From positions 1 to 22,042 of IMG/VR virus record IMGVR_UViG_3300033571_032329: a stretch of DNA of 22,042 nt. One strand, 5' to 3'. The notes below the pieces were generated by a model. That model saw only the letters and a program-made list of their open reading frames with translations, had not been told where the DNA came from and did not search any database. The stretch comes from a virus. The position numbers were made by a program, and so were the translations under genes. Of the stretch, positions 884-21,482 are shown piece after piece; position 1 is the stretch's first letter, and the number at the start of each line of letters is the position of its first letter.

Positions 884-1165
884 GTGATTATGGCTTCATA
901 CGCGGAGGCATTTGGATATACGCCAAAACAATTCCTTAGCCTAACACTACCCCAGCTCGCCGCCTTTGGAAGGTACGCGACAAAGCAGGAAGAAGATAGA
1001 AAAAAGAGAAAAAATTCAAGCGGCTCATCTTCTTCCAGCGGAAGCACGAGTAGCTCAATCTCCGACATTGCTCAGATGTTTGGTACCCCAGAGACAAAGT
1101 CGCGCCTTCGAAAGCAGGCTATAGAACAAGCCAAAAAAGTTAAAATGGAAAAGGTTTCTGAGTAA
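884..1165 (+). CDS. Tail assembly chaperone, downstream (T-like) frame; expressed as -1 fusion 573-1165
   Basis: The frame lies -1 to the preceding gene and is open back through the slippery run. The listed GTG start at 884 has no convincing ribosome binding site. The real product is most likely a 197-residue fusion beginning at 573, slipping at 836-845 and reading on as V-G-G-T-E-K-W-S-E-I-D-W. The best folded part reads SYAEAFGYTPKQFLSLTLPQLAAFGRYA, spanning about 896-979. After it comes a basic stretch, a Ser/Gly-rich linker (about 1012-1059) and a charged helical tail. In the lambda system the T part contacts the tail tube protein while the G part binds the tape measure. The TAA stop overlaps the tape measure ATG by one base, so the two are probably translationally coupled. 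Confidence 0.82.
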   Translation: MIMASYAEAFGYTPKQFLSLTLPQLAAFGRYATKQEEDRKKRKNSSGSSSSSGSTSSSISDIAQMFGTPETKSRLRKQAIEQAKKVKMEKVSE

Positions 1166-4100: not shown

Positions 4101-7100
4101 CCCAAGGTCAGCGCCTAAAGAAGCCAAAAAGCCAGCCGCGGCAAAGGTAACTAAAAAAACAGCTCTTGGGGATAAGCCCGTTAGGCCGATGTCAAAAGAA
4201 AAGCAGATAGCTGCCCTTGCCGCCTCTCAAGGATATAGTAGCAATAGCGGTGCAGGAAAAGCCTACATGTCGCTTCTCAAGAAGGGCGTTGATCCAGCCA
4301 CAGCAAAAGGCATTGTCGAGGATGGAAAGAAGTCCGGAATAGCCGGAAAGCAGCTTGAGCGCTACGCAAATAACCGACAGCGGGGAATGGACCATGACAC
4401 CGCAAAAGCTGTAGCAACGGCCCGAAAGGCCAGCGCTACGGCTGCCAGCGCAAAGCAAGAGGCGCAAAAGCCGAGCTCCGCTGGCGTTGAAGCAAAACCT
4501 GCCCGCGGCGGAAAGGGCGGTGGCGGCAAGGGGGAAGGCGGAGGGGGCGGGAAGAATAGGCGTGGCGGCGGCGGTGGCGGCGGGCAAGGGCCACAGAGGC
4601 CAACGACAACTAATCGCGGCGACTATATGGCTAGCGGTGGCGGCGGTGGCGGTGGCGGTGGTAAGGGTGGCGGCAGATTCGATCCGTATAACCAGGGCGG
4701 AGCAATAGGCGGAGCCGGGCAACTTGCTGGCCAGATAACAAAGAGCGTTATCACCGCCCAAGTTATTGGAAAAGTTGGCGCAATCCTTGGGCAAATAACC
4801 GGCGGCCTCATTGGCTTCAATATGAAGATAGAAGAGGCTGGCGTTGCGTTCCAGACATTGTTCGAAAACGAACAGCGGGCAATGGGTACGTGGCAGGGCG
4901 ATTCCACAATGGCAAAGCTCAAGGCCGCAGATATAACAAAGCAGATCCAAAATTTTGCTAACGTTACGCCGTTTAGGTTCCCAGAGCTTGTAACCGCAGC
5001 CGAGCGCATGAAGGCGTTCGGCTTTGAGACAAAGACAATTCTACCTAACTTGCAAGCAATCGGTGACGCAGTCGCCGCACTTGGTGGAGAAGATGACAAG
5101 CTAAGAAGAATCACGTACGCACTTGGGCAAATGAAGCAAGCGGGCCGGGTATACCAGAACGACATGATGCAGTTGTCCAACGCGGGTATCGCCGGATACG
5201 AAATTCTTGGCAAGGGTCTCCTTAAGCAAATAATTGAAACGGGAAGAGTTACAATTGCCGGAACCGAAGGAATCATTGATAAAAATGCCTCCAACATAGA
5301 TCAGTCGGTAAACGACATTGTTGCAAAGCAGGGTGCTGGATATAAGGTCATCTCTGCAACCAGGCAAAAATATAACGATATGTTTGAGGCACTTGCACTC
5401 GCCCCAGTTGAGGCGATTAGAAGCTACACAAAGAAGGGAATCATCGAGGGTCACGCAGCAGCGAACACCATCATGCAGGGCCTTGAGACAACTTATCAGG
5501 GCGGAATGCGCAAGATGTCCAGGACAATGCAAGGCGCAATCTCCACAATGCAAGATACGTCGCAATACCTTATCGCACTTTCATTCAAACCTGCGTATGA
5601 CGGAATAAGAGACCTTTTCTATAAGGCCGGACAGTTCATGATGAAGGAGGGCGGGCAAAAAATTGCCAAATCTGTTGCAAAATCAATACAGCCACTTTCA
5701 GATACATTCTTTAGAGTTATACCAAAGATGGGGAAGCTATTCTCTAATATAGTTTCCGGAATAGCAAAACCGTTTATAAATCTCTACAAGGCCATGCAAA
5801 AGGTCAAGATAGACGGCCAGGGGATGATCACGTTCCTTACAAATAGACTCGGGAAGGGCGTTATGTTCCTTTCGGAGATATTTAAAAATAGGTTTGTTCA
5901 GGCAATCCTTGCCGCTGCGGTAGCGTTTAAGGTTCTTACTACGGTCATGGCCGCAAACCCAATAATAATTGTAATTTCTGGCGCCGTTATGGCCCTTGGC
6001 CAGCTCACTCAAGGAATAGACAAGCTTAAGAAGGCCGGTGGAATTAGCAAGATTGGCGAGATAGCTCCAAAAGATCAAAAGAGCGCCGCATTTGCAATAA
6101 GAATAAATGAGGCAATGTCCGGAATAGCAAGAACAATGCAGCGACTTAAATCTGGCGTTGGACCAGCTGCGCAAAGATTCTTTGAGGTGATAGTAACATC
6201 GATAACGGATCTTGGCACTGGATCAATTGACAGGGCAACAAAGATGATCTCCGCGTTCCTAACAACTACAACTGGAGTCCTTCAGTCCATTGCGCCGTAC
6301 ACTGGGGAGCTCGCTAAGCTTCTTGTTGCCTTCATAGGATTTAAGGTTGCCGCTGGTGGGGTCAACATGTTCGTTGGCGTGATAAACACTCTTGTTCTTG
6401 CGATAAGCTCACTTGCTGGCGCAATGATCCTCTTTAAGGGCGGCGGCATGAAGGGCATACTTGGCGGTCTCATGGAAAAGGGTGGAATCAGCAGGGCTGC
6501 TGGGCTTATCGGCAGGACTGGTGCGGCAACAAGATCGGGAATCATGTCTGCAGAGGCGGCATCGCCAATAGCAAAAATAACAGAGGCCGCAGCATCAACC
6601 GGTCAACCCGTGGGGAGAATAGGGCCAGGAAACATCCTTAAGCAGGGGAAAATGGCACTCCGGGCAATCTTTGGTAAGGGGCCAGAGGGAACCACGCTTC
6701 TTAGCGAAAAGGTTGCTGGCGCCGGTAGGGCAATAAAAGTCGGTGCACCAGCAGGCGAATATTCCGTAATAAAAACAGCAAAGACATTTGATGCCGCTGG
6801 TAGGCCAGTTGTTGGCGCCGCAACAAACATTGCCTCAAAAATAGAATTCACAAAACCGGCCTCTGGCATTGCAAAGTTTGCCGCTGGGGTTGGAAACATA
6901 TTTACCAAGGGGAAGGGCGCAGCTGGATTCTTTGCAACCCTTGGCGGCGGGATAAAAATTGTTGCCAAACAGTTTGGGATCTGGGGCGTTCTTGTCCCAA
7001 TCATAATTGACAATATTGGAAATATTATCAGGTTCATTGGATCGTTTATTGGCTTTATCTTTAAATTGATTAGCGGACTTGGCGGACTAATAAGTGCCCT

Positions 7101-9906
7101 TGGCCCGGTTGGCGAGGCAATAAAAGCAGTGTTTGACATCATTGATTCGGTAGTGGGGTTCATAAGCACCACTTTTGGAAAAATTATAAATGCGCTATCC
7201 GACGGAATGGATCAATTTGGCGCAAGTACTGAAAGTACTGCCGACCAAATTGCAAATTACAAAGCGGAAATAATTGATGCTGGCTATTCCGAAGAAGACG
7301 CAATAAAAATCGCAACAGAGCTTGTCGCAATGAGAAAGCGACAGACGGCTGCGGCAATAGAGCTTGCCAGGGCTAACGGCACGATAGCCCTAATTCCGGG
7401 AATGAAAACGGGAACAACCACCCCAACAACTACTTCACCAACTGGAACATCGCCATCGGCCCCAACATCTGGCAAGCCAGTGTATGGGGGTGTTGTCCGC
7501 GCAACCGATACTGATGCAACCGGAAAAGTTTGGACGATGGACGAAAAGAAAGTCTGGTGGTCAAAGCCCGCAAATAAAGGAAAAACTCCGCCTTGGCAGC
7601 AATCGTACATAGACAGAACCTTTCCAACTGGCGGGTCCACTGGAACGCCATCTAGCCCACTGAGGAGGGGCTCAATTGGGCAGATTAAGAGCTGGGGCGA
7701 TACCGCGGTAATGACTCCAGATGCGAACAATCCGGGCAAAAGCAAGGAGACGACGCTCAACAAGGCTGGGGAGGAACTTGGAATTTCGGACCTTGGGAAT
7801 ATAGCGGGGGATGCGTATATTGCGGCTATTGCAAAAGCAATCGCTGCCTCGGAAGATTATAAGGCAACAATAATCAAGCTAGGCGCCACGGAGAAAGACG
7901 CAGAAGCAGCCGCCCGAGCAAAACTTACCGCCTGGGAAGACGAAATATCTGCAACCGTTGATAACGTCGCGGCAACCCAAGATTGGGGCTCGCTCATTGA
8001 TGCGGTTACCGCAAAGGGTGACAGCTTTAGCGTGGCAACGCAAAAAATGTCCGGAGACGTTAGCGCCCTTCGGGCGGAACTTCAATCCGCCTCCGATGGA
8101 TCATATGAAATCACCGTATACATCATAGACCAAGATGGAAACCCAGTAAAGGACACAATAAAGCTTGTTGGGTCTGCCGCAGAAAGCGCCGGAGCAACAA
8201 TGGAGTCCATTCAGGCGATTATAGACAGATACCGAGCGGCCATAGTTGATACCGGTGCTGTTTCCGGGGATATGGCAGACGTTATAGTAAACGCGAGAAT
8301 GAATGAAATAAGTGCGGCCATAGGCGATGCGGCGCTTGGATGGTACACAAACGCCGATGGGGTAAGGGAATATATAGGGCAAACCCTCGCAATATCTAAA
8401 GTTCAAGCGGATATGAAAAAGATAGTTGGCGTAAACTGGATGGACCTCCTTGCTGCAAACCTTGAGGATAAGCTGGAACGGGCAAAACAGGCCGCTGAAA
8501 AACTCAAGGCAATTATAGACCCACTTGTTGACGGAATAATTAAAAGACTTCAAAACAGCGCAGAGGATCAGTTTGCCGCAAGAATAGAGCATGTAACTTC
8601 CATACTTGAAGAGCAGAGAAAAGCTGAACTTGACGCAATCCAAGTAAGATCAGACGGGATAAACACAACGTACGGACAGCTCCAGAGAGAGATTGCCGCT
8701 CAAGATAAGAAAAACCGCCTACTCACTATTGAAAAGTCAATAATAGATGCTAGAAAAAATGTTGCCATGGCTGCACTTGCCGGATACGGCGATAACGCAG
8801 ATCCTCTACAGGCAGCAATTCAAAAAAGAGAAGCCGACCAGGCGATGACTGATGCAGTGCAAAAAGCACAGGAGGACATGAAGAAGATTACTATCGAAAA
8901 CATGGATTCCACAGCGCAGGCAGTTCAGGACACAATGGATCTCAGGATAGACATTGTTACAAAAGCACTTGATGATGAGAGGATGGCGTTCCAAGAGAAT
9001 ATTGATGCTATTGTCCAGAAAATTAAAGATGGCTCCATAAAAGGACAAGCCGCAGTTAACGCAATAAAGGGCGCATTCAGCCAGTTTAGCATAGCGCTCC
9101 CAGCGAATGTTCAGCAAATTGGCCAAAGCGGCATCATGCCAATATCAAAGGGTTTCCAGCAAATACAAACTGCAGTGGACAGATACTACAACAAATTGCA
9201 ATTAATTAAAAAGCTAGAAGATCAGCTTGGAAGTATTACCGACACTCCAACACCTACCGATCAAGAAGTTCTTGATGCAAAAAATGCAGATAATGCTGCT
9301 GATCAAATTACAAGAAACAGAGCATCAAAAGAAATTATGAGCACTGCCCTAAAGCAGTACAATGCCGCGTGGGCTAAATGGATGGCGGAAATTACAAGCG
9401 GCAAGCCTATTAGCGCTCAAACCACAGCCGCAAGAAATAGAATTCTTGGGGAATATAACTTGTTTATAAAATCAAAGCCTAGCAACATGGGATCGGTTTC
9501 CGAAAAAGACTTTGAAAAAATAATGAAGTCCTACACGGGATTTACCGGCTTCCTGCAATCTCCTGAAGTTGACCTGTTTACTCCGCCTCGCGCGAGAGGC
9601 GGCCCCGTTGCCCCAGGCGGCACGTATCTTGTCGGCGAGCGGGGACCAGAGATACTAACAATAGGTAGAACCCCTGGGGAAGTTATATCAAACTACTACG
9701 TCAAAGGCCTGACGGACACATTTAAGAAATTTAGCATTGGAAGCCCACGCGTTAGCGGCCAAATGTCGTATAATACTGGTGGTAAGACCGAGCTGTCTGT
9801 TGTCATCAACAACCCGCAGGTGCGAAACGATCAGGACATTGAAAGGATTGTCCAGGCCGTCAATAGATCGCAAATGCGTATGGCTCGCAAGTTGGGGCTT
9901 AGCTAA
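1165..9906 (+). CDS. Tape measure protein, 2913 residues
   Basis: The tape measure fills the tail tube, sets tail length and is ejected at infection. Residues 1-1110 are Lys/Ala-rich, with a Pro/Ala/Lys stretch at about 713-1002, and a Gly-rich segment covers 1113-1172. The recognisable tape-measure-type core follows at about 1200-1400 (FNMKIEEAGVAFQTLF near 1216, NDMMQLSNAGIAGYEIL near 1332). Hydrophobic stretches lie at about 1577-1612, 1719-1757 and 1937-2011. A Thr/Pro/Ser linker with a Trp-containing segment covers about 2086-2200, and coiled-coil-like helices about 2436-2629. Near the C terminus is the familiar GGPVAPGGTYLVGERGPEIL motif (2812-2831). No peptidase domain was recognised. 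At about 0.15 nm per residue, the whole chain would imply a tail near 440 nm, or about 260 nm if only the core spans the tube. The start is set by the one-base overlap and a weak GGAAAAGG site (1147-1154). Many ATA and AGA/AGG codons are used. Confidence 0.95.
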   Translation: MAGKITDQQMAVFVAIVIKDIVTNRGINIPRGSSMDAKAAQKIAHERVSSQLQNAGHDISPAKVAKLIKSNGLDTAKARDAILKPAAQKIKAETKAAKEASADKKKGISRTNVAFAKDIAAKQAKIPYQAPKRAADTSSRARAKMPTIPPLTRAELRLAKRLFPGISDSDANKHREHIRPAVQRGASAGSGNGQRRSDRFIERGYQTLKDSAIPGVKQAAPASIMRMATAKYTPTPSSAAAKRVPINGQSGEQGTGSTARGTRYFTADQAAFMRSDPRAVRQYMKLRRSDAGRRITITQRIPGSQSIPARTVSTPLRGAARAGKIVDLIRTDRAQKAIRLREDAKKIKAPEKIDPANAKQVAKAAGEREAVRQVMANNSRRVDSTRGYVASKEIIGSTEHASRIDAITSKSITAGTKIFGPSDEKADTAVRGSAEKAYAHAVERFQQDMGIKSTDIKNPQILAKIDEKFASPESHAAVIRSSVATMGGKDTRKISQRIRELAASKSPADRAIAQRIADEYMPGKINVARLSADADRKEKEKAKEPVKSVEPKKVSARAKQRTEEFKKHDKETKRREAANKAAGKGEKPYPKVSGDRATLAKAVGLRSPNQTKPGLSEGYAHKGILSNQDIVGAAKARAAGSSPEIADRKIIANTIASKVAGSQAVSGAPKAILEAMAADPKIAKFYLGEGATAITGVKGKDIERQMTQKEILDAFAAKNAAAEGKAPKLPKSGKAPKAPKAEKAPAAKPAVKPSAAAPAKSSSKPAAASGGSGGGAPKDRKQIAIDNMKTRYGMEGAMQGKIKAIDAHIKSQGIDPATRKQILSRIEANVNAKVAGGMKETDAWKSIGMLGKNLAGSDNIKAIVREAKAGPGAIEKTLNTIAPSEVAKMAVPPAEKKPAAAKVTEKAATKAAEKTETKPAAPTVAAKATPKPEATPKTSPKAKTSQKPAQKPAAKAATQKPIPKAQTKPVAQKSAPKAAPRSAPKEAKKPAAAKVTKKTALGDKPVRPMSKEKQIAALAASQGYSSNSGAGKAYMSLLKKGVDPATAKGIVEDGKKSGIAGKQLERYANNRQRGMDHDTAKAVATARKASATAASAKQEAQKPSSAGVEAKPARGGKGGGGKGEGGGGGKNRRGGGGGGGQGPQRPTTTNRGDYMASGGGGGGGGGKGGGRFDPYNQGGAIGGAGQLAGQITKSVITAQVIGKVGAILGQITGGLIGFNMKIEEAGVAFQTLFENEQRAMGTWQGDSTMAKLKAADITKQIQNFANVTPFRFPELVTAAERMKAFGFETKTILPNLQAIGDAVAALGGEDDKLRRITYALGQMKQAGRVYQNDMMQLSNAGIAGYEILGKGLLKQIIETGRVTIAGTEGIIDKNASNIDQSVNDIVAKQGAGYKVISATRQKYNDMFEALALAPVEAIRSYTKKGIIEGHAAANTIMQGLETTYQGGMRKMSRTMQGAISTMQDTSQYLIALSFKPAYDGIRDLFYKAGQFMMKEGGQKIAKSVAKSIQPLSDTFFRVIPKMGKLFSNIVSGIAKPFINLYKAMQKVKIDGQGMITFLTNRLGKGVMFLSEIFKNRFVQAILAAAVAFKVLTTVMAANPIIIVISGAVMALGQLTQGIDKLKKAGGISKIGEIAPKDQKSAAFAIRINEAMSGIARTMQRLKSGVGPAAQRFFEVIVTSITDLGTGSIDRATKMISAFLTTTTGVLQSIAPYTGELAKLLVAFIGFKVAAGGVNMFVGVINTLVLAISSLAGAMILFKGGGMKGILGGLMEKGGISRAAGLIGRTGAATRSGIMSAEAASPIAKITEAAASTGQPVGRIGPGNILKQGKMALRAIFGKGPEGTTLLSEKVAGAGRAIKVGAPAGEYSVIKTAKTFDAAGRPVVGAATNIASKIEFTKPASGIAKFAAGVGNIFTKGKGAAGFFATLGGGIKIVAKQFGIWGVLVPIIIDNIGNIIRFIGSFIGFIFKLISGLGGLISALGPVGEAIKAVFDIIDSVVGFISTTFGKIINALSDGMDQFGASTESTADQIANYKAEIIDAGYSEEDAIKIATELVAMRKRQTAAAIELARANGTIALIPGMKTGTTTPTTTSPTGTSPSAPTSGKPVYGGVVRATDTDATGKVWTMDEKKVWWSKPANKGKTPPWQQSYIDRTFPTGGSTGTPSSPLRRGSIGQIKSWGDTAVMTPDANNPGKSKETTLNKAGEELGISDLGNIAGDAYIAAIAKAIAASEDYKATIIKLGATEKDAEAAARAKLTAWEDEISATVDNVAATQDWGSLIDAVTAKGDSFSVATQKMSGDVSALRAELQSASDGSYEITVYIIDQDGNPVKDTIKLVGSAAESAGATMESIQAIIDRYRAAIVDTGAVSGDMADVIVNARMNEISAAIGDAALGWYTNADGVREYIGQTLAISKVQADMKKIVGVNWMDLLAANLEDKLERAKQAAEKLKAIIDPLVDGIIKRLQNSAEDQFAARIEHVTSILEEQRKAELDAIQVRSDGINTTYGQLQREIAAQDKKNRLLTIEKSIIDARKNVAMAALAGYGDNADPLQAAIQKREADQAMTDAVQKAQEDMKKITIENMDSTAQAVQDTMDLRIDIVTKALDDERMAFQENIDAIVQKIKDGSIKGQAAVNAIKGAFSQFSIALPANVQQIGQSGIMPISKGFQQIQTAVDRYYNKLQLIKKLEDQLGSITDTPTPTDQEVLDAKNADNAADQITRNRASKEIMSTALKQYNAAWAKWMAEITSGKPISAQTTAARNRILGEYNLFIKSKPSNMGSVSEKDFEKIMKSYTGFTGFLQSPEVDLFTPPRARGGPVAPGGTYLVGERGPEILTIGRTPGEVISNYYVKGLTDTFKKFSIGSPRVSGQMSYNTGGKTELSVVINNPQVRNDQDIERIVQAVNRSQMRMARKLGLS
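4501..4680 (+). repeat. Glycine-rich low-complexity coding segment in tape measure gene
   Basis: Runs of GGC/GGT/GGG codons encode several poly-Gly blocks, the longest nine Gly in a row, broken by Lys/Arg. They fall exactly between the Lys/Ala-rich N-terminal part and the recognisable tape measure core. This is probably a flexible hinge or a processing boundary. The base composition also produces misleading open frames on both strands here. Confidence 0.85.
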
Positions 9907-12900
9907 TGGCAATACGCGTCTACATACAGCTAAAGATTGAAGATTCGCCAGCTGGCATAGCTGGCTTTACCGACATTACCAGCAGGGTTGCGCTAGAGAA
10001 TTCCAGCTGGTCGCGCGACGCAGACGGCATGAGCTCGGAGATCTCATTTGATATCTTTACACTTCTCCCGCATTCTACATATCATTGGTCCGAGTACCCA
10101 GGAGCGACGTCTGCTGACAAGTTTGCAGCAGCGGTTGCCGATCAGGGATACAGAGTGTATGTCCCCATCAGGGCGGAGCTCTATGTTGAAGACTCCAACA
10201 CCGGAAAAAGAATCTTTGGTGGAATTGTTACTTCTGCGGATTATGCAAAGGAAAGTGGGTACATCATCGCCCACGTTACGGGAGGAGACTACACTCAGCT
10301 TCTAGAAGAGTGGATTATCAACCGATACGATATTCCCTACGGATCAAAAGATACCGACATCATCCTCGGCAACATAGTGCCAAACGCCTATACGGGCGAA
10401 GCCGTTCCATCAATACTTCACCCAGATAATCTTGCAAGAAACACGGACGGAGGGTCAGACTCGCCGGACATAAACCCACTGTTCTTTACCGTTTCCTCAA
10501 TTACAAAAAGCGGCAACGGTTCATACACATCTGGGATTGTAAGCAGCGTATTTACAACTTCCGACAACCACGATTTTGTCGTGGGTGACCAAGTAATTAT
10601 TACGGGAACCATTGGCACTTCATCTGATAGTGATGTGTTTGACTACACTGGTCCAATTACGCATGTGCCCAATGTAAACACCTTTGTTGTTTCAAATTTC
10701 CCCGCCAGCTATTCCGCAAACGCTGCGGGAACATCCTATCCGCAGACTACATCTATGGCAAGACATGATTATGTAGTAACAGCATCTGATTCAATATTTA
10801 GCCCAATCTACGTTGGCTATGGCGATGAAAGAAACATCCAAAAAATCAAAAGGAGCGCAGGATCCACTCGGGTAGCGATTGACACTGCTGCCCCAGCAAT
10901 CGCCTTTATTGAGTCAATTCCCAGCAAGGACTACTTCTATGCGGTTGAGGAGATCACAACTGATGTTACTAAGGCTGGCATTACCCCATCCGCAAGCACC
11001 GATGGACTTGCCATTGCCTTCATTGACCCAGACCCAACAAACACAAACCTTAGGGACGCGAAGACTGCAAGAATTGACCCAATAGTTACATCAACCCAGA
11101 AGACAATTAGCAACATTACAGCCATGGCCAACGGCGAGATAAAAATTGCCTTGCAGGCAGCAGTCTCGCTTGAGGCAAGAGAAAATACTCTCTGCTACAT
11201 TGTTGCAGCCGGTTATAAAAAGAATGCAAAAGGAACAGTCATTGCCGCGCAGACCGGAAACTTTACCGGCGTTTACAGAATTACCTCAATTGACGCGGCA
11301 AAAAACATTTTTACCGTAAAGCCAAGAAATCCAGCAAAGCCAGATCTATCCGGTATAAAAGTTGGTACGTTCTGGGGCGACTCCACTGGCGCAGATAGAG
11401 ACCTTGGATACCCCCAGACTAGCAGCGGAAAGCTAACTGGGGTAAAGGAAGACGACGCTTTTGTTCAGGCTGGCGTTGACCTTGTTGCTGGGGACCCATG
11501 GTCTATTACTGGCGACGGGAATGATTCAAAGGGGATCACTGGAGCTACCTCTGCTAAGTCTGCCCTACAGACTGGCTACGTTAGGGAAGTTGCCGCTGGC
11601 AAAGATACAGTTACCTACACGGTAGACGGAGCAAACAACTTTGCAGTCGGCGATTACGTTGGCGTTAGCGGGGTTACCATAAGCGATACGCCATACAATT
11701 TTGGTATAAAAAAAGTCTTGGGAGTTAACCCGCAGTACACCGTGTCAAGCGTAACCGCGGCACCATCAACAATCTCAACCACCTATGCCACGGGAGCGGT
11801 TGTGGCAGCTGGCTCAAGCATTGAATACAAGTATTACGATGTTGATCCCGGATTTGCCGTTGGCGACTATGTAAAGATTTCTGGCACTGGTTATAGCGAA
11901 CTTGATATAGACATTGCAAAAATTAAAGCGGTAACAAGCAATCAGAAATCTATCTCCTCAATTGAACAAGCAAAATCCGTTATCTCCCAAGACGGAACAA
12001 CTCAATCATCAATAACATCCCAAGGTACCACCGAGAATGGTTTTACCCTTTACTACAACACATTTACATCTGGCATTGTTGCTGGTGATTACGTTTCAAT
12101 TTCCGGATCTGCAAACACAGACATTAATACCGGACTGGCAATAGTTACTGCCGTCTCCTCAAGGGACGCCTCAATTGCAAGCGTAGCTGGATCAAAGACC
12201 CCAATTAGCGCAATCTCTAACGGCCTGTGGGGCATTACGCAAACGGATAACCGGGTTACCGCATCAAACGACGGAGAGTACATAGCTTATATTTTTAATA
12301 ACGGGGTAAACCCTGGCCTTGTGGTTGGCGACGCGATTACCATTTCCGGAATCAAAGACGCATCCGGCGCAGATTTTAGCTACTACAACAGATCAACTCC
12401 TGTAAAAGTAGAAAAGATTTCAACAGCTGGTGACGGAAAAAAGATTGTTAAAATTATAAAGCCATACACGGTATCATCTGCCGGTGCACGCACCTATAGG
12501 AACATCCCAACGGGGGCTGTCACAATAACGAGCTCCGTAATTACCAGGGTTGATATTGTTACATACACCACATCCTCAAATCACTCCCTCCCGCTTGGAG
12601 AGCTTGTAACTGTTGCTGGTTGCACAAATTCCGACTTCAACGTTTCCGATCAACAAATTATTGCAACAACGGCAAACACGTTTTCAATTGTAAAAACCCA
12701 GACTGGCACGTCGGCGTCTGGCGGTTTGGCAAGGCCGAAAGCAAACTCTATCAGCGTTCTGATCCCAGCAAAAGCTGTAACGCCATCGTCAACCGCAATA
12801 ATCAACGCGTCTGGAGCAACAATTACGCGTGTTCAAGTTGTTAAATATAAATTTGCAGCAGACGTTCCGTTTATTGTTGGTGATAAAATTTCAGTAGAAT

Positions 12901-15900
12901 CCGCCGGTGTATTTAATATTTCAAATCAGATAGTTGCAGGAATTGAAACCGCTGCTGCTGGAGCTAGGGCAGTTCCAGGAAAAGCAAGATCTGTTTCCGT
13001 AATATCAACTACAACGGGGTCGTATACATCTGGCGGAATTGCATATTCCACTAGATCGCAAAACTCTATTACGGTTGAGATCCCACAAGGGACTTTTTCA
13101 ACTCATGATTTTGCCCAATATGCCTTGATTGAAAGACTGCGAACAAACACGTACACGTTTGTTGGTAACCCAGATTTTAAAGTTGGGCAATACCCGAAAG
13201 TTCTTGGAAGCACCTCGGCAATATACGACCTTAACAGCTCGGCTCAAGATTATCCAATTAAACGCTACGAGTCGGAGATATCGTCAACGCCAACATACTA
13301 TCAGAGAACCGGAACCACCGTTACGATTACAACAAAGGGCGCTCACGGTTTTACAAAAGGAAGAACGGTTGTCGTATCTCTAAAAAATAACCCAAGCTCA
13401 ATAAACGGAACTTTTACCATCACCGATGTCCCAACGACAACAACATTTAAATACACCCGAGGGACCGGAACTATTGCAAAAACTGCGGTTGCAACTGGCG
13501 TAAGTACCGCTAAGCAGTACGGGCAATTTGTCACAATTTCCGCAAAGACTGGCCTGTTTGCTGGGGCCTCAGTGTACACCCGTGGATATTACGAGACGTT
13601 TACGGTTGGGAGCGGCGCTATTGCCGGTACGTCATACCCCGCGATAGACCCGACGCCAAGAACATCGTCATTTGCAAAGCGGGTTCCGACGGTTACGTAT
13701 ACATCCACTGGTCACCCATACACCGCAACCTCTGCCTCTAGCGGATCAAAAGTTACGGTATCAGGCATTTCCCCAAGCGGATTAAACATAACCGACAAGG
13801 AAATTGTTGACACAACAACAAATACTTTTGTTGTGAAAGACGTAGAGCTGATCACATCTGGGATAACATACTCATCTGGCGGCTCGGTATCACTTTCCGG
13901 GGCGGATAACAACGGATCATTCCGCATTGCGTATGACCCGGGCATGACTGATTCCGGTCGACCCTGGGTTGCATATTACAATGCTAATGCAGTCACTGAG
14001 TCGAGCACAAAGCAATCAACAAAAGGTGGCGGAACAAGGCTGAGGATTGAGTACGAAAACCTTGTATCTCACAACATAACAGAGAAAACATCTAAAAACG
14101 ATGTTCGAATTGGAGACACCGTCAAGGTAAGCGGAACGCTTAAGTCCGGGTTTATCAACCAGATTTCTATAAAAGGCGGAAAAGCAACAGTAATTACCCC
14201 AACAAATAACATTATCAACGGAGACAGGGTAACAATCTCCCAGGCTGGGGTGCCGTTTGATGGGTCTTGGTACGTCCACGACGTTGCAACAAGCCCAACG
14301 ACGGCAACCTCTTCGTTTGTTATTGATATCACTGGAGCTGCAGATAAAGACAGCGGAATATACGGCATAAAGCCAAGTTGGTCAGTAAATTTCTCTAATG
14401 ATGGAGACGAATCCACTGCCTTTGCCGTGGAGACTATGGAGAGGGACTCTTCTGGCATTGTAAAAATAACTACTACTGAGCCACACGACATTGTTGTTGG
14501 GCAAAAAGTTAACGTGATTATAAGGTCGGGAAACCTTTACGGTGAAATAAACGGATACCATTCAGTAGCTTCGGTTGACTCAAACTACATTACATATCAA
14601 ACGGCGCAAACTGGATCGGTTATCTCAATAACCGCGACAACTGGAAAAATTTACCAGCGCGATGGATACATTGTCTATCGGGTTCCAAACGAGAGTAGCG
14701 TTTACGCAATGTGGCCGGGGACCCAAGAGATCCCAGCAAGGTCGGTCCTTGCAACAGTAAATGAAAAGATTGACGTTGGCGACATTATTATGGTCTCCAA
14801 TACAAAAATTCCCGAAATAGATGGACAGTACCGAGTAGTAGAAAACACCGACTACTCTTTCTGGGGAACAAAGCAGCCGTATGCTGGATATTTTGAAGCA
14901 GAGCTGGTTGAAGGCACTTATACTACCGCCGCAGAATCAAGCCAAGGCGTATTCCAGAAAAAGCAAGAGATTGCAAAGGCAAGAATCCTTGAGCAGCTGA
15001 AGGGCAGGACAATTAGATCTGCCATAGACTTTATTACCTCGCGCACAAAGGGGCAGTTTTGGGTTGACCCGTACAAAAACCTTCAATACAAGAGAAGAAA
15101 AACAGTAAACATAGTCAAAACTCCGATTTACGAGTCCGGTTCTGGATCTTCATCCTCGCTTGGTTGGACTATAGACGGTGGATTTATCCTTGATAGTACC
15201 GGCGTGACTGGGCCGTATGGGACGGGCTACACAATTTATCACAGCGGCGTTGCAAAGGCTTGGCGTTATTACAAATTTGTTCCAAAGGCCACAAGAAAGG
15301 CTGGCTTTAATAACGCAAGTCTTTCAAAGATGCGGATATATTCAAGCTCCTCCGAGATTGCCATTGCCTCGGCAACCCCTCAGTATGCAACAGAGAACGC
15401 CGACGCAATAATTGACGAAAACAGCAACAGTGACTGGCTCACCACCAACATGAATAGCTCAACTGGGCCAAATGTAATTTTGGATATTTCATCTGCGCAA
15501 ATTGTTGATCACTACTCAATCTACACATCTTGGAACGACTCCACGGACTCTGACCCAGTTTCATGGGAAATATACGGCAGCAACGATCAGTCATCTTGGT
15601 CAATACTAGACAAAAAGGAATCCTACGGGACAACAGTTTCAAGGTCTACAGCGATTGGTACATTCTACATATCCCCACAAACTGCCGCGTACGCAAGATC
15701 TTCTGCAATTACCGTTTCCCCTGGAAAGAAGTACTGGATTTCATATAGGGTCAAGTCTCAGTCAGCATCAGCCGCGTCCGCAACGGTCTCATTTGCAGCC
15801 AGCGACGGGGCAGAGATCTCAGTAATAAAAACAATTTCTGGACCGGTCGTTCCAAACAATTGGGAGAAAAGGTATGCGATTGTTGAGGTTCCCACCGGAA

Positions 15901-18900
15901 AATACGCAATGTACGTTTCCGCAAAGATTTCTGCCGAGGATAAAGTTTCCTATTTTACTGATTGGTCCGTTGTTGAACTAAACGGTTCGTACGGATTCAG
16001 CGACAGGCCAGCAGAAGACGATGCGGCATACTCATCTGTTCTTCCATTCAAAGAATATGAAATCCCCGATTACTCAAAAGAAAGCTCCGGCGTTGCAAAT
16101 ACTGTATATATCTACGCTGCAATAATAAAAGCGGAAGATACCACCGCATCCGGATCTGTTCCATCTGCAGCAAGCACGGTAAGCAGCGAGAACATCATAG
16201 ACAACGGTAGCTTTGATCAAAACATCAAGCAGGCTAATGTATCCTCAATCATTAGGTATAACACCGGTTCCATTGTTCAGGTAACAACGATTTCTCCGCA
16301 CGGATTTGAAACCGGCGATTATGTTTCCGTTAGCGGAATACCATCAGATCTTACAATTGCAGATGGGACAAACATTGTAACGAGGATCTCCGACCAGGTA
16401 TTCCAATACGCAGAGGCTGGATCTGACGCAAGCAGAACGGGCATAGAAAATACCGGCGTTAAAGCTTCGTCAACTTACACGATAAAGAATTGGTCAGCAT
16501 CTAATGCGACTATCTCCCCAAGCACAAACTATGCTGTTGCCGGAGAGGTCTCGTTGCTGGCAATCCCTGCAGCCTCTGGAACAGTAACAATATCCTATTC
16601 TGAAGGCGCTGCGCTCAATATTACGCCTGGGGACTCCTATACGTTCTCGATCAGAACAATAGTTCCAAGCACTCAGGCAAATAGAAACATAACCATAAAA
16701 ATGTACTTTTATGGCAACAACGATGATCAAGTTGGTTATTACTCAGTGGCGGATGTATCGCAGTCTGCGGGAACATGGAAAAGCGTTGCAGTTTCTGGCG
16801 TTGCCCCCACCAGCGCGGTTTATGCAAAAGTGGAAATCTTAATTTCTGCCGCAGAAACCGCAGACTTCCACTACTTTGATGACGCAAAACTTATCAACGC
16901 GTCCTACCAGCAGATCTACTCTTATTCCTTTACCGACACCAAGGCCCTGTGGAACGCAAGCGGAAAGGTTATTGAGACTTCAATGGCAGATCAGCAAATT
17001 GCCACGGAGGAAGAGGTGACGCTCAAGGCAAAGCAATACTTTGAGGGCAACCCAAGCGGTCTGGAGTCCATTGGCTTTGATATGTCATATAACTCTGTTG
17101 CACCTCAGGTTGGAACCGTTGTCCCATTCCTCTGGAGGGACCTTGATATTTATGATGCTTACGTCATTAAGTCTGTATCGACAAAGCTTATCGGGACTGA
17201 AATCTTCTATAGGGTTCAGATAACTGGCGACTCAGAGCTCCTTGGCCGCGGTCTTCTTTCCGGGAAGAAGACTGCCCTTAGTGTGGTTTCTGATGGAGAG
17301 GGCGGGTCAAAGACAATCAACCCACCGGTCTATCCGTTTATTAATATTATCAATGGAGCAAACCCAGGAATTCAACTTAGGTGGCTTCACGCTTCTGGCG
17401 GTCAAAACTCAACGTACTCAATTTGGGCAAGAGCAATTCCCGCAGGGTCTGCGCAATACAGCGCAATTCAGTACAAGTTAATTAAGACCGGCATTGAATC
17501 AAATCCAATTGGCGAAATACAAGCTGCAAACGGCGACATCCAGTGGCGCGATGGAACAACAGTTGTTGATCAAACAATTGATAAAGAGGGAATGTATGTC
17601 TACAGAGAATACGACAGCAGATATTGGTACCAGTTTGTTATCAGGTCAAACATTCCTAACTTGTCAGGCGTGCCAGTATATTCAAGGCCAACCTATATCC
17701 CCGAGCCAGGGAGCCCGATTAGGCAGTACATTGCTCCGCCAACGGGCATTACCCTAAACTCAGACGCTCCGCATTCGTACGCCATTGCGGAAGACTACGC
17801 AGACAGCATAGACAGCGCCCCTTCAGAGGGAGACGGCTCTGGCATTAACTCAATCCAGTCCTCAGCAAATGGCAATCTTGGAAACCCGGTATTCTCGTTT
17901 ACTGGTGATGGAATTTCTATTTACAACGGAGCTGAATACACGGATGGGATAGGAAACACATATGACGCCGGTTCAAGAAAAATTCTTGAGAGCGATTTGG
18001 TAAAGGGCGTAACAATCAATGCTGACGTCATTAACACAGGCGTGCTCAATGCAAACGTTGTTGACGTCATTAACCTTAATGCTGACAACATTGTCGCTGG
18101 CACCATTGACGCCAGCCAAATCGAAGTCATCAACCTCAACGCCGACAACATCACCACGGGGACCATTGCCGCCACAGAGCTTCGCGTGGGCACTGGGGCC
18201 AATACCGTCGGCCTGACCGCAGACTACCTCTCTGGGACCGCGGGCTACGCCTTCTGGGCAGGAACAGAAGACCCAAGCAGCGCAAGTCCATTCTCTATCC
18301 AGACAGACGGGTCGGTCATTGCAAGCAACATTACTATTATTGGCGGCTCGCTTGACGCATCTATAGTCAATGTTACCAACCTTGCCGCAGATCAGATCAT
18401 TGTTGGGTCTGGATCTAACACCGTTGGGATTAGCCCAAACTACCTATCCGCCAGCGCTGGCTACGCAATCTGGGCAGGAAGCGCAACGCCAAGCTCTGCA
18501 AGTCCGTTCTTGGTAAGCACTGACGGCTCCGTTGTCGCAAAAAATGCAAACATTACTGGCACCATTTCTGCCTCTGCTGGAAACATTGGCGGATTTGCAA
18601 TTAACGCAACCTCCATAACTGCAGGCTCTGGGGCAACAGCCGTAGGCGTGGCACCAGGATCATACCCATTCTTTGCTGGCTCAGCCACAGCCGCCTCTGC
18701 GCCGTTCAGGGTCACCAGCACGGGCGAGCTGACTGCCTCTGGCGCCAACATTACGGGAACTATCTCGGCAACCTCCGGCAGCATTGGCGGGTTCTCAATC
18801 AACGCAACGTCGATATCTGCCGGGGTGGGCGTAAGCACTGTTGCGCTTTCCACCACGGGCGATTACGCAATTTACGCAGGGAGCTCAACCCCATCAGCAG

Positions 18901-21482
18901 CACCATTCTCCGTAACCCCTGGCGGCAAGGTTGCGCTGTCCGACGTCACCATCAAGGGCGGGTCGCTCTCTTCCGCTGCCGCAAACTTCATTGCCTTTGC
19001 CGCAAACTTTGCTAACGGTGTTGTTTCTAGCGTTGCAATTGCAGACGCGGCAATTACTACCGCAAAAATCTCAACCGCGGCAATTACTAGCGCCCTTATT
19101 CAAGACGCGGCAATTACTACTGCTAAGATTTCTACGGCGGCAATTACCAGCGCAAAGATTGAGAGCCTTGAAGCAACAAAGCTAACAAACATCTCTGGAC
19201 AACCGCTGCTTATTACCGCGGGCGGCGATGAAATAACCGCGGGGCCAGCATCTGGCGGAACCCCAGCATCAACCACTGGAGACATTGGCATCATTGGCGC
19301 AGCTTCTTCGCTTCTGATTGCCAACAAAAATGCTTTTGCTCAGGCTGCAGAAAAGCTAACAATAGACCCCGGTATTGAGCCAGAAGGGGCAAATATTGAC
19401 GAGTTTTATGGCGGAGCTGCTGGCTCCGTTTACGCGCAAACTACAGAGCAAGACCCTGGGGCAGTTGCAATTTCCTACGGCACAGAATGGGGACAAAGGT
19501 ACGCTTCTTCAAGACTTGTTTCTTCGTATGCTAATAGATTTGCCATTGAAAGCGTTTCAAGGTCCGGGACAACCGTAACGATTAAAGGTGACGGGATCTA
19601 CGAATTGATTATTTCTGGGGCGATAAAGGCCACTACGGCACTTTTCGTTGACCTGTCCACCAATTCCCCAGATGCAACAACCTACTCCCAGGTTAACGGA
19701 TCGAGAACCGTTGCCTCAGTTAACAGCACCTATCCAGGCAGTTTCTCATATACAGTTGCAACGTCTGCAACCCTTTCAGAAACTCCAGCAACTGGCTTTT
19801 ACGACTTGTTGGACAACACGGCATCTTCGGTCGATACATACGCAATTAACTGGCTTGATGTTGAGGTTTCCACAATTGCAAGAACCTCCTTGGGGGTTGT
19901 AACGCTTGGCGGTAGCGGATTTGATCAAATCCTTGCTGCGGGGGATAAGTTTTATGTAAACATTACAGTACCAAATTCGACTTATTCCGCAAACGAGGGT
20001 TGGCAAACGGCAACAAGCGTTACGGCGGGAACTATCGTTTACTCATCTACCGGTGGATTGGTTTCCACAACGGCAGTTACGGGAACAATTTCCATAAGAA
20101 ACATTTACAGCAAGTCCGGGTTTAAGATTAAATCCGGATTTGATACTGTTGTGATACAAGCAGATAGCGATCAGGGATCGCTTAACATCAACACATCGAG
20201 GTCAATGGACGTTATCAACACTGCTAGATTTGGCGAGTACGATACCCTTGATTTTGCCAACAACGGACCAGCTGATGGGGCATTAACCTCTGCAAGCCTT
20301 GGCTATGCTCAATTTGTTTACAGTGACGGCATCGTCATTGGGTCAAAAGTTGCACAGGAGTCTGGTGGTGTCGGCTACGGAACGCAAGGAGTTGGGGCGT
20401 CAATTACTTTTGAAGCATACGACGACAATGTAAGCGTCGCGCAAAGCCCTGTATATGTCTACATGAAAGAAGATGTCCCTGCAAGCGGTATTGCTGGACT
20501 TGCAGTAAGCGGCTCTCTGCGCATTGACAGAACGTCGCAAGCAACCCTTTCAAGCAAAGATCACGGGTTCCAAATTGGTCCAAGCAGCGGCAGTAATCTT
20601 AGGATGGACACTAATGAAATTAACGCATTAAGCAATGGCGCCGTTGCGGATATCTATATTAACCACTATGGTGGAGATGTCCACATCGGCCAAAACGCAT
20701 CAACAACCGCTGGCAACATAATCCTTGGTACTTCTGCCACAAACGTCACTGGTGCGATTATCTTCAAGGACGGCACTGGCGGATCAATTCGCGCATTTAG
20801 CACCACAAGCGGAAATACCTCAATTGCCATCAAAAACAGTAGCGGTTCCGCCTACGCGGCATTGGTTGCTGATAGTTTCTTCCCCGGCGGCCAGGGTAGC
20901 GCCAGCATAGACCACAATGGAACGCAGTTTATAATGAATGATTCTGTTTCCATTACTGGCGGAATAACCGTTAGCGCCGGAGTTACCGCACAATCAAGCT
21001 CGATTGCCCTAACGGCATCTGGCGGTGGCGACATTACTATGACTGGGGCTGATACAACAGTTCCGATTAGCGGAAACGGTGAACTCCAGGCGATTCCAAA
21101 CACAACAACTTTGACGACAAATAGCGCGCGGTGGGTGTCACTTGGCAGCAACAGATACGGATTACAGCGCGACTCTTCAACGCGCCGCGCGAAGACGAAC
21201 ATCGTTGAGGCTGACGACGCAGTATTGGCCGCCGCCAAGCGCCTACGCGCCGTTCACTTTGAGCCACTTGAGAAAGACGAAGAGGGCAACCTGCGCGGCA
21301 CTGGCCAGTTGACGCTTGGACTGATCGCCGAAGAGATTGCAGAGGCAGGGCTTGGATGCGCCGTGACCTATGACGGCGAAGGATTGCCGGACGGATACGA
21401 TGAACGCGTAATCATTGCTGCGCTCCTACATCGAGTTAACGACCTTGAGGCCAGACTGGCAGAAGTAGAATCTGCTGACTAG
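9906..21482 (+). CDS. Giant tail hub / receptor-binding fibre protein with S74 chaperone, 3858 residues
   Basis: This protein probably closes the tail tip, binds the host surface and forms the central fibre. Residues 1 to about 190 resemble the start of a phage tail hub. About 14 short beta modules follow (about 205-1680), then GRTIRSAIDFITSRTKGQFWVDP (1700-1722), which resumes a hub-type domain. A discoidin-like domain (about 1800-1930) and carbohydrate-binding-module-like domains (about 1929-2035 and 2095-2335) come next, then the last hub-type part (about 2349-2455). A fibronectin-III-like region (2469-2602), fibre repeats (about 2699-3095), a motif HGFQIGP...MDTNEINAL (from 3552) and a peptidase S74 domain (about 3750-3858) complete it. 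No signal peptide or membrane segment is seen. The start overlaps the tape measure stop by one base, with a weak GGGG site (9894-9897). The hub assignment is inference; the fibre role and S74 domain are firmer. Confidence 0.9.
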   Translation: MAIRVYIQLKIEDSPAGIAGFTDITSRVALENSSWSRDADGMSSEISFDIFTLLPHSTYHWSEYPGATSADKFAAAVADQGYRVYVPIRAELYVEDSNTGKRIFGGIVTSADYAKESGYIIAHVTGGDYTQLLEEWIINRYDIPYGSKDTDIILGNIVPNAYTGEAVPSILHPDNLARNTDGGSDSPDINPLFFTVSSITKSGNGSYTSGIVSSVFTTSDNHDFVVGDQVIITGTIGTSSDSDVFDYTGPITHVPNVNTFVVSNFPASYSANAAGTSYPQTTSMARHDYVVTASDSIFSPIYVGYGDERNIQKIKRSAGSTRVAIDTAAPAIAFIESIPSKDYFYAVEEITTDVTKAGITPSASTDGLAIAFIDPDPTNTNLRDAKTARIDPIVTSTQKTISNITAMANGEIKIALQAAVSLEARENTLCYIVAAGYKKNAKGTVIAAQTGNFTGVYRITSIDAAKNIFTVKPRNPAKPDLSGIKVGTFWGDSTGADRDLGYPQTSSGKLTGVKEDDAFVQAGVDLVAGDPWSITGDGNDSKGITGATSAKSALQTGYVREVAAGKDTVTYTVDGANNFAVGDYVGVSGVTISDTPYNFGIKKVLGVNPQYTVSSVTAAPSTISTTYATGAVVAAGSSIEYKYYDVDPGFAVGDYVKISGTGYSELDIDIAKIKAVTSNQKSISSIEQAKSVISQDGTTQSSITSQGTTENGFTLYYNTFTSGIVAGDYVSISGSANTDINTGLAIVTAVSSRDASIASVAGSKTPISAISNGLWGITQTDNRVTASNDGEYIAYIFNNGVNPGLVVGDAITISGIKDASGADFSYYNRSTPVKVEKISTAGDGKKIVKIIKPYTVSSAGARTYRNIPTGAVTITSSVITRVDIVTYTTSSNHSLPLGELVTVAGCTNSDFNVSDQQIIATTANTFSIVKTQTGTSASGGLARPKANSISVLIPAKAVTPSSTAIINASGATITRVQVVKYKFAADVPFIVGDKISVESAGVFNISNQIVAGIETAAAGARAVPGKARSVSVISTTTGSYTSGGIAYSTRSQNSITVEIPQGTFSTHDFAQYALIERLRTNTYTFVGNPDFKVGQYPKVLGSTSAIYDLNSSAQDYPIKRYESEISSTPTYYQRTGTTVTITTKGAHGFTKGRTVVVSLKNNPSSINGTFTITDVPTTTTFKYTRGTGTIAKTAVATGVSTAKQYGQFVTISAKTGLFAGASVYTRGYYETFTVGSGAIAGTSYPAIDPTPRTSSFAKRVPTVTYTSTGHPYTATSASSGSKVTVSGISPSGLNITDKEIVDTTTNTFVVKDVELITSGITYSSGGSVSLSGADNNGSFRIAYDPGMTDSGRPWVAYYNANAVTESSTKQSTKGGGTRLRIEYENLVSHNITEKTSKNDVRIGDTVKVSGTLKSGFINQISIKGGKATVITPTNNIINGDRVTISQAGVPFDGSWYVHDVATSPTTATSSFVIDITGAADKDSGIYGIKPSWSVNFSNDGDESTAFAVETMERDSSGIVKITTTEPHDIVVGQKVNVIIRSGNLYGEINGYHSVASVDSNYITYQTAQTGSVISITATTGKIYQRDGYIVYRVPNESSVYAMWPGTQEIPARSVLATVNEKIDVGDIIMVSNTKIPEIDGQYRVVENTDYSFWGTKQPYAGYFEAELVEGTYTTAAESSQGVFQKKQEIAKARILEQLKGRTIRSAIDFITSRTKGQFWVDPYKNLQYKRRKTVNIVKTPIYESGSGSSSSLGWTIDGGFILDSTGVTGPYGTGYTIYHSGVAKAWRYYKFVPKATRKAGFNNASLSKMRIYSSSSEIAIASATPQYATENADAIIDENSNSDWLTTNMNSSTGPNVILDISSAQIVDHYSIYTSWNDSTDSDPVSWEIYGSNDQSSWSILDKKESYGTTVSRSTAIGTFYISPQTAAYARSSAITVSPGKKYWISYRVKSQSASAASATVSFAASDGAEISVIKTISGPVVPNNWEKRYAIVEVPTGKYAMYVSAKISAEDKVSYFTDWSVVELNGSYGFSDRPAEDDAAYSSVLPFKEYEIPDYSKESSGVANTVYIYAAIIKAEDTTASGSVPSAASTVSSENIIDNGSFDQNIKQANVSSIIRYNTGSIVQVTTISPHGFETGDYVSVSGIPSDLTIADGTNIVTRISDQVFQYAEAGSDASRTGIENTGVKASSTYTIKNWSASNATISPSTNYAVAGEVSLLAIPAASGTVTISYSEGAALNITPGDSYTFSIRTIVPSTQANRNITIKMYFYGNNDDQVGYYSVADVSQSAGTWKSVAVSGVAPTSAVYAKVEILISAAETADFHYFDDAKLINASYQQIYSYSFTDTKALWNASGKVIETSMADQQIATEEEVTLKAKQYFEGNPSGLESIGFDMSYNSVAPQVGTVVPFLWRDLDIYDAYVIKSVSTKLIGTEIFYRVQITGDSELLGRGLLSGKKTALSVVSDGEGGSKTINPPVYPFINIINGANPGIQLRWLHASGGQNSTYSIWARAIPAGSAQYSAIQYKLIKTGIESNPIGEIQAANGDIQWRDGTTVVDQTIDKEGMYVYREYDSRYWYQFVIRSNIPNLSGVPVYSRPTYIPEPGSPIRQYIAPPTGITLNSDAPHSYAIAEDYADSIDSAPSEGDGSGINSIQSSANGNLGNPVFSFTGDGISIYNGAEYTDGIGNTYDAGSRKILESDLVKGVTINADVINTGVLNANVVDVINLNADNIVAGTIDASQIEVINLNADNITTGTIAATELRVGTGANTVGLTADYLSGTAGYAFWAGTEDPSSASPFSIQTDGSVIASNITIIGGSLDASIVNVTNLAADQIIVGSGSNTVGISPNYLSASAGYAIWAGSATPSSASPFLVSTDGSVVAKNANITGTISASAGNIGGFAINATSITAGSGATAVGVAPGSYPFFAGSATAASAPFRVTSTGELTASGANITGTISATSGSIGGFSINATSISAGVGVSTVALSTTGDYAIYAGSSTPSAAPFSVTPGGKVALSDVTIKGGSLSSAAANFIAFAANFANGVVSSVAIADAAITTAKISTAAITSALIQDAAITTAKISTAAITSAKIESLEATKLTNISGQPLLITAGGDEITAGPASGGTPASTTGDIGIIGAASSLLIANKNAFAQAAEKLTIDPGIEPEGANIDEFYGGAAGSVYAQTTEQDPGAVAISYGTEWGQRYASSRLVSSYANRFAIESVSRSGTTVTIKGDGIYELIISGAIKATTALFVDLSTNSPDATTYSQVNGSRTVASVNSTYPGSFSYTVATSATLSETPATGFYDLLDNTASSVDTYAINWLDVEVSTIARTSLGVVTLGGSGFDQILAAGDKFYVNITVPNSTYSANEGWQTATSVTAGTIVYSSTGGLVSTTAVTGTISIRNIYSKSGFKIKSGFDTVVIQADSDQGSLNINTSRSMDVINTARFGEYDTLDFANNGPADGALTSASLGYAQFVYSDGIVIGSKVAQESGGVGYGTQGVGASITFEAYDDNVSVAQSPVYVYMKEDVPASGIAGLAVSGSLRIDRTSQATLSSKDHGFQIGPSSGSNLRMDTNEINALSNGAVADIYINHYGGDVHIGQNASTTAGNIILGTSATNVTGAIIFKDGTGGSIRAFSTTSGNTSIAIKNSSGSAYAALVADSFFPGGQGSASIDHNGTQFIMNDSVSITGGITVSAGVTAQSSSIALTASGGGDITMTGADTTVPISGNGELQAIPNTTTLTTNSARWVSLGSNRYGLQRDSSTRRAKTNIVEADDAVLAAAKRLRAVHFEPLEKDEEGNLRGTGQLTLGLIAEEIAEAGLGCAVTYDGEGLPDGYDERVIIAALLHRVNDLEARLAEVESAD
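10530..14935 (+). repeat. Array of about 14 diverged beta modules (FCCH-like) within hub gene
   Basis: The protein repeats a roughly 60-100-residue pattern with the signature F-x-V-G-D-x-V-x-I-S-G followed by a Tyr/Thr-rich strand. Cores lie near 10582, 11649, 11860, 12078, 12325, 12595, 12878, 13178, 13350, 13750, 14108, 14220, 14495 and 14772. Several copies are degenerate, for example VGQYPKVLG and KGRTVVVSL. The pattern resembles the short beta repeats often matched to the E1 FCCH domain in phage tail proteins; this is recalled family knowledge, not a search result. The copies are diverged at DNA level, so the array is old rather than freshly duplicated. Confidence 0.75.
15300..15695 (+). 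other. Discoidin (F5/8 type C, CBM32-like) domain within hub/fibre gene
   Basis: Residues about 1800-1930 contain, in order, ATENADAIIDENSNSDWLT, then VILDISSAQIVDHYSIY, then SWEIYGSNDQSSWSIL. This order (Asp/Asn-rich loop with Trp, I-x-hydrophobic-D strand, Y-x-hydrophobic-x-S-x-D-x-x-x-W) is the familiar discoidin pattern. Such domains usually bind sugars or lipids, so a role in attachment to host surface glycan is likely. The ligand cannot be told from sequence. Confidence 0.7.
16186..16910 (+). other. CBM4/9-like carbohydrate-binding domain split by a beta module
   Basis: NIIDNGSFDQ (near residue 2096) is a typical opening for a CBM4/9-type beta sandwich. The rest appears later: NWSASNATI, then LNITPGDSYTFSIRT, TWKSVAVSGV and HYFDDAKLINA (to about 2335). 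Between them (about 2109-2178) is a complete extra copy of the beta module with HGFETGDYVSVSG. A neighbouring sandwich without this insertion lies at about 1929-2035 (SPGKKYWISYRV to YFTDWSVVELNG). Sugar binding is inferred from fold resemblance. Confidence 0.55.
18060..18179 (+). repeat. Tandem 60-base repeat, two copies, in fibre region
   Basis: Two adjacent 20-codon units begin at about 18060 and 18120. Both encode a version of EVINLNADNI followed by (A/T)GTI and an alcohol- or Ala-rich end. A partial, more diverged unit precedes them. They form a short beta or coiled segment typical of trimeric phage fibres. Confidence 0.75.
18186..18960 (+). repeat. Four tandem modules of about 66-73 residues in fibre region
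   Basis: Units start near 18186, 18402, 18621 and 18819. Each goes from a GSGxxTVG-like segment through YA(I/F)WAGS-xxPSSASPF and xTDGSVxA to ITGTIS or IGGSL. The spacing of 216, 219 and 198 bases keeps the reading frame. This layout is common in phage central fibres and is expected to form a trimeric stalk. Confidence 0.8.
19044..19161 (+). repeat. Two tandem 60-base repeats encoding AAITTAKIS-type units
   Basis: Two nearly identical 20-codon units start at 19044 and 19104. They encode DAAITTAKISTAAITSALIQ and the same with small changes at the end. Codon differences are mostly silent. Such I-x-D-x-A-I-T-x-A-K-I repeats are usual in phage fibre shafts. Confidence 0.85.
21153..21479 (+). other. 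C-terminal peptidase S74 (endosialidase-type intramolecular chaperone) domain
   Basis: The final residues (about 3750-3858) contain DSSTRRAKTNIVEADDAVL, then LRAVHFEPL, LGLIAEEIAEAGL, and a terminal helix VIIAALLHRVNDLEARLAEVE. This is the usual layout of the S74 chaperone, which helps a fibre trimerise and then cuts itself off. Ser3758 and Lys3763 are five residues apart, fitting the known Ser-Lys pair. Cleavage just before Ser3758 would release a piece of 101 residues. The segment is more G+C-rich than the fibre before it. Confidence 0.9.

Follow-up and report, generated by a model that had tools for sequence, protein, structure and literature searches.

The window analyzed here (22,042 bases; virus record IMGVR_UViG_3300033571_032329, positions 1–22,042) covers part of a tail module and contains small genes, a tape-measure gene, a gene encoding a 3858-residue protein, and a gene truncated where the record ends. 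Comparison of the 3858-residue protein with collinear compact relatives supports a core that is interrupted by inserted beta modules and carbohydrate-binding module (CBM)-like domains, with ≈370 core residues versus ≈2070 inserted ones; the core comprises ≈15% of the first 2447 residues. On the basis of synteny and of a match to PHROG 196, weak and tested with controls, that relatives give when their core pieces are joined, this core is likely a tail hub. A preliminary description of the window had read positions 9906–17275 as a hub in three separated parts (residues 1–190, about 1683–1740, and about 2349–2455) that projects two loops. These parts are indeed continuous in relatives, but a fourth core piece (residues 2026–2072) had been overlooked, and this extra piece makes the gaps three rather than two, one of them with a nested insertion. 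Nor does the protein end at 17275, where the translation has no stop; the frame continues to 21482.

Four core pieces align in order to compact relatives

IMG/VR holds relatives with a compact form of the protein, and these make the split testable. Window residues 1–153, 1693–1765, 2026–2072, and 2347–2447 (pieces A, B, C, and D) align in order to one continuous region of ≈820 residues in 16 other contigs, some of which are near-identical to one another. Comparison by hhalign with a profile of the compact relatives aligns window residues 3–156 (E = 2.6e-21), 1694–1764 (E = 3.4e-9), 1930–2074 (E = 4.1e-11), and 2335–2445 (E = 1.8e-13). Hidden Markov models (HMMs) specific to each piece score 222 (A), 86 (B), 67 (C), and 137 (D) bits in the window; since the window is itself one row of these HMMs, the hhalign E-values are the independent figures. 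In all compact relatives, the four HMMs match in this same order. Successive pieces are separated by gaps of 1539, 260, and 274 residues in the window versus 289 to 314, 119 to 121, and 30 residues in the compact relatives. The gene is organized as follows, with hub-domain names predicted.

9906..21482, + strand: whole hub-candidate gene, 3858 residues, one open frame from ATG to stop, with a C-terminal Peptidase_S74 domain
9906..10364, + strand (residues 1–153): core piece A, putative first tail-tube-like domain plus the beginning of the second hub domain
10365..14981, + strand (residues 154–1692): insertion 1, 14 FCCH-like beta modules and an unmatched stretch of ≈290 residues
14982..15155, + strand (residues 1693–1750; match extends to 1765): core piece B, putative second hub domain
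15162..15248, + strand (residues 1753–1781): insertion 2, N-terminal part of the CBM-like domain, 19.7 bits, profile positions 19–46
15372..15719, + strand (residues 1823–1938): nested discoidin (F5/8 type C) domain, PF00754, E = 1.4e-6, 28.9 bits
15693..15992, + strand (residues 1930–2029): insertion 2, C-terminal part of the CBM-like domain, 45 bits, profile positions 54–156
15981..16121, + strand (residues 2026–2072): core piece C, 67 bits and supported by alignment, missed by the preliminary description
16272..16859, + strand: insertion 3, an FCCH-like module (residues 2123–2180) and a second CBM-like domain (residues 2198–2318)
16944..17246, + strand (residues 2347–2447): core piece D, putative second tail-tube-like domain
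17274..21479, + strand (residues 2457–3858): downstream fibre region, a Gp58-like part and an S74 chaperone at residues 3758–3814

The three parts of the preliminary description return no match by tblastn among annotated phages, and single-sequence scans of viral contigs with the middle and end parts are likewise negative; a search of viral contigs with the three parts yields one relative, L002, which is 65% identical over residues 1–190. L002 has the same giant architecture as the window, with a gap 1 of 1459 residues, and is truncated by the contig end before pieces C and D. An alignment of the window and L002 tape-measure proteins finds 22 contigs in IMG/VR, and in those reaching far enough, the gene after the tape measure opens with the same domain and encodes 1559 to 1667 residues where complete. 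A later scan with this first domain gives more relatives, for an overall range of 1550 to 2417 residues among complete genes, and a scan with piece D returns loci on largely the same contigs as before. Among the relatives scanned, none has an insertion 1 intermediate in size between the compact and giant forms. An assembly artefact as the source of the giant form is ruled out by L002, which is a separate contig with 65% identity in piece A and has the same insertion 1 with matching modules.

Composition of the insertions

An HMM trained on seed modules detects 14 modules of ≈60 residues in gap 1, nine of them confident and five weak, and gives no match in 20 shuffled copies of the protein, in agreement with the approximately 14 FCCH-like modules reported in the preliminary description. 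Thirteen of the 14 best match the module at the same position of L002, with residues 1138–1195 alone lacking a counterpart there. Because of this pairing by position, we regard the weak modules as real units, and the array as predating the separation of the two phages, with a module gained or lost since. The compact relatives have exactly one FCCH-like module in gap 1. E1_FCCH (PF16190) scores 15.1 to 19.1 bits, below the Pfam gathering threshold of 29.5, and the modules are for this reason labeled only as FCCH-like. Near the start of insertion 1, ≈290 residues (275–560; 10728–11585) match no Pfam family and contain no confident module. Three relatives with a compact core, L040 (hub gene residues 1217–2019), L034, and L035, by contrast have additional FCCH-like modules in their fibre regions, which indicates that copies of the module accumulate at various sites within the gene.

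The CBM-like domain of gap 2 is common to all compact relatives. In the window, its two halves are parted by ≈148 residues that hold the discoidin domain. The discoidin domain of the preliminary description is real, with PF00754 at 28.9 bits versus a gathering threshold of 28.2 when residues 1823–1938 are searched as a separate piece (21.8 bits, below that threshold, in a longer stretch), but it is nested inside the CBM-like domain, not beside it. The L002 counterpart of this stretch is of similar length and has no Pfam match. A CBM4/16/22 fold is recovered with Z = 13.8 in a model of relative L012 and with Z of about 10 in a weak model of the window protein; in the latter, CBM4/16/22 folds align over ≈115 residues that span ≈270, which agrees with a nested insertion. 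Of the proteins long enough to cover this point, only that of the window has insertion 3, whose CBM-like domain weakly resembles the first (14.3 bits).

Probable assignment of the core as a tail hub

In the window and in all relatives that hold both genes, the hub-candidate gene comes next after the tape-measure gene, and in the window, the first base of its ATG is the last base of the tape-measure stop codon (9906). This location, downstream of the tape-measure gene in a tail module, is that of a gp27-like siphophage hub, minus the usual Dit gene. When the four pieces are joined, PHROG 196 (“baseplate hub”) is the top family for five relatives (L034, L035, L027, L029, and L040; E = 6.2e-5 to 5e-3), with no PHROG 196 match for a sixth, L037. 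Order and decoy controls were run on one relative, L034. Its joined pieces give a PHROG 196 match of 22.7 bits that spans the A|B junction, and pieces A and B only give 24.4 bits over profile positions 164–273. The score is 15.7 bits for A alone (match ending at 210), 17.8 bits for B placed before A (ending at 219), and 15.4 to 18.9 bits when five decoy segments replace B; the natural, unjoined chain gives no match. Piece B of L002 placed after A of L034 extends the match to 270, although its score of 17.7 bits falls among those of the decoys, and piece B of the window does not extend it. The gain of A plus B over A alone on the hub profile, in L034, supports the reading that the first part does not stand alone.

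A number of results weigh against this assignment. When the pieces of the window protein itself are joined, neither Pfam nor PHROGs gives a hub family, and the window protein is identified as a hub solely through its relatives, whose match is itself weak. No separate Dit-like gene is recognized between the tape-measure and hub genes of the window (at 9906) or of relatives (L007, 14668–14669), where the textbook order of tail-tip genes is tape measure–Dit–Tal. A profile comparison with the uninterrupted hub-like gp27 of phage Finn and its relatives is not significant, and fold comparisons with the PDB, dominated by the CBM-like domain, list no hub, which does not exclude one. Two AlphaFold models built on shallow alignments are poor, with a mean predicted local distance difference test score of 52.7 and 42.8; the order of strands and helices in pieces A and D is no more than compatible with a hub. 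We take these models to back the CBM-like fold in gap 2 and neither to confirm nor to exclude a hub fold. Pfam yields no hub family for the joined pieces, and a PDB sequence search with the alignment or the joined core finds nothing related. The proposal that one polypeptide forms the hub is partly supported: the collinear relatives show an interrupted core, and the hub fold is probable.

Comparison with known tail-tip proteins

Insertions into hubs are already known as such, and the window protein is an extreme form of a decoration known at smaller scale in dairy phages. The Tal proteins of Brussowvirus (Streptococcus phages SW13 and TP-778L) have a gp27-like hub domain with inserted lysin modules on long linkers, modeled far from the trimer axis (PMC9437275). 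They resemble the window protein in having a hub domain interrupted by inserted domains and CBMs in the same protein; their only insertion, which consists of lysin modules of about 170 and 150 residues, lies between subdomains 3 and 4 (PMC9437275), whereas the window protein has three insertions, the largest at another position, and no enzyme is recognized in any of the three. “Evolved Tal” and “evolved Dit” are conserved tail-tip proteins into which CBMs are inserted, one or two of ordinary size (PMC7291167), in contrast to the 14-module string and the discoidin nested in a CBM-like domain found here. A CBM-like domain lies between pieces B and C in the window and its relatives, as in an evolved Tal, and the window protein counts as one only if its core is a hub. 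Insertions in the gp27-like domain outside of hdII and hdIV have been published as well (PMC9437275, PMC7291167). T5 pb3 has an hdII insertion, which closes the tube, and a plug (PMC10038345), and lambda gpJ has FNIII-A in the HDII insertion and a beta-sandwich in HDIV and continues into the central fibre (PMC10038345, PMC10721106). T5 pb3 and lambda gpL/gpJ thus share hub insertions with the window protein, but of one or two domains each (PMC10038345, PMC10721106), and no sequence relation of either to the window is found in the PDB sequence search.

In Andromedavirus (Bacillus phage Finn gp25/gp26/gp27), hub-like sequence is interrupted by a receptor-binding tailspike that is, unlike the insertions in the window, a separate gene (or part of one long gene in Geobacillus phage GBK1); a sequence relation to the window is not detected. 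In Finn (L004, 14859–17754), a 99-residue gp25 and a 316-residue hub-like gp27 flank the beta-helical tailspike gene, with a PHROG 196 match in gp27; the related phages GBK1, Zuko, and KimJongPhill have one long gene instead of separate gp25, tailspike, and gp27 genes. Distant tape-measure matches also led to cultured phages, and the downstream genes of two of these, Tuck and Finn, show no significant relation.

What stands out in the window is the scale of the inserted sequence relative to the core, the three sites, an array that changes inside a loop, and a domain nested in an inserted domain. The protein bears on the extent to which a tail-tip core can accept insertions, with the compact relatives revealing which loops are tolerant, and the window and its compact relatives form a natural before-and-after set for asking if insertions widen or stabilize adsorption. 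It also illustrates how annotation can miss tail-hub domains when the core is so small a fraction of the chain and is not directly recognized by any family library.

Proposed architecture and alternatives

We consider it probable that the protein is a single-chain tail tip in which four core pieces form a hub, probably trimeric and gp27-like, from which three loops of inserted domains emerge and which is followed by a C-terminal fibre. The core pieces would fold together and seal the tail tube beneath its final tube ring; pieces A and D would contribute hdI and hdIV, which make up the last ring, and hdII would be arranged around B. Three surface loops would carry the 14 beta modules (A–B), the CBM-like domain with the discoidin domain inside (B–C), and a beta module with the second CBM-like domain (C–D), and the C-terminal 1400 residues would form a central fibre with the S74 chaperone. 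Because both of its ends are anchored in the core, each insertion is expected to be a closed loop that runs out and back, and the reach of the 14-module string would then be at most about half of its contour. This string may be a flexible arm that grips surface glycans weakly and reversibly, with weak multivalent binding bringing the fibre to its receptor. More tentatively, and with some doubt on our part, the 14-module arm and the nested sugar-binding domains could make up a lateral adhesion crown of closed loops on each hub subunit, such that a single gene supplies the hub along with the side fibres and the central one, and the arm lengthens or shortens in evolution as modules are gained or lost within a loop of the tube-closing protein. 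The contrast drawn in the preliminary description, of loops projecting sideways rather than downwards, is a false alternative: the same chain runs 1400 residues past the last core piece to the S74 domain and so most likely has a central fibre too.

The pieces might instead be separate domains with no relation to one another, placed along a modular fibre, their apparent split being coincidental; beta-rich tail proteins are modular, and AlphaFold did not confidently bring the pieces together. We regard this as very improbable in view of the same order and near-constant spacing of all four pieces in 16 other contigs and of the finding, in L034, that piece B strengthens the hub match only when it follows A. 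It is also improbable, if less so, that the pieces belong together in a tail-tip scaffold, Dit-like or of another type, and that the gene for the true hub lies elsewhere. The missing significant hub match of the window, the fact that the window covers only 22 kilobases of the genome, and the unrecognized Dit would all fit such a scaffold, whereas the joined relatives match “baseplate hub” and the flanking genes in relatives are cysteine-peptidase-like and holin-like, not tail genes. Moreover, no other PHROG 196 gene is found in four contigs of 79 to 85 kilobases, a search of low sensitivity that misses the hub-candidate gene too.

Finally, the core may be a hub whose insertions act as structural spacers or as tube-closing plugs into or below the tip, after the manner of the T5 hdII insertion (PMC10038345), rather than as glycan-binding side arms. 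The FCCH-like modules have no shown ligand, and CBM-like folds are no proof of binding. We nonetheless find this rather unlikely: 1539 residues per chain would be a lot to fit into a tube lumen, the folds of discoidin and CBM-like domains are ones that typically bind surfaces, and the Brussowvirus hub insertions are modeled far from the axis (PMC9437275).

Neighboring genes

The remaining features of the window flank the core and its insertions.

1165..9906, + strand: tape-measure gene, 2913 residues, Pfam TMP_3 E = 3.3e-9 (below its cut-off), PHROG 9959 E = 4.5e-13

The fibre region matches PF07902 (E = 2.1e-5, below its cut-off) and PF13884 (E = 8.8e-5, just above its cut-off). The gene cut by the window end (21543–22042) looks by eye like a C39-like cysteine peptidase and has conserved counterparts in relatives (L007, 19773–20396); it has no PHROG or phage match and gives no clue to the host. 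In relatives with longer flanks, the hub gene is followed by this cysteine-peptidase-like gene and a putative holin, both identified by eye and without a family match. A search of representative bacterial and archaeal genomes finds no relative, and hence no provirus or clue to the host. The hub gene directly abuts the tape-measure gene, with no gap, in relatives as in the window. Where complete, the tape-measure proteins in this group have 2794 to 3708 residues, with an N-terminal part rich in Ala, Lys, and Pro (window 1165–4700; L020, 3789–14915).

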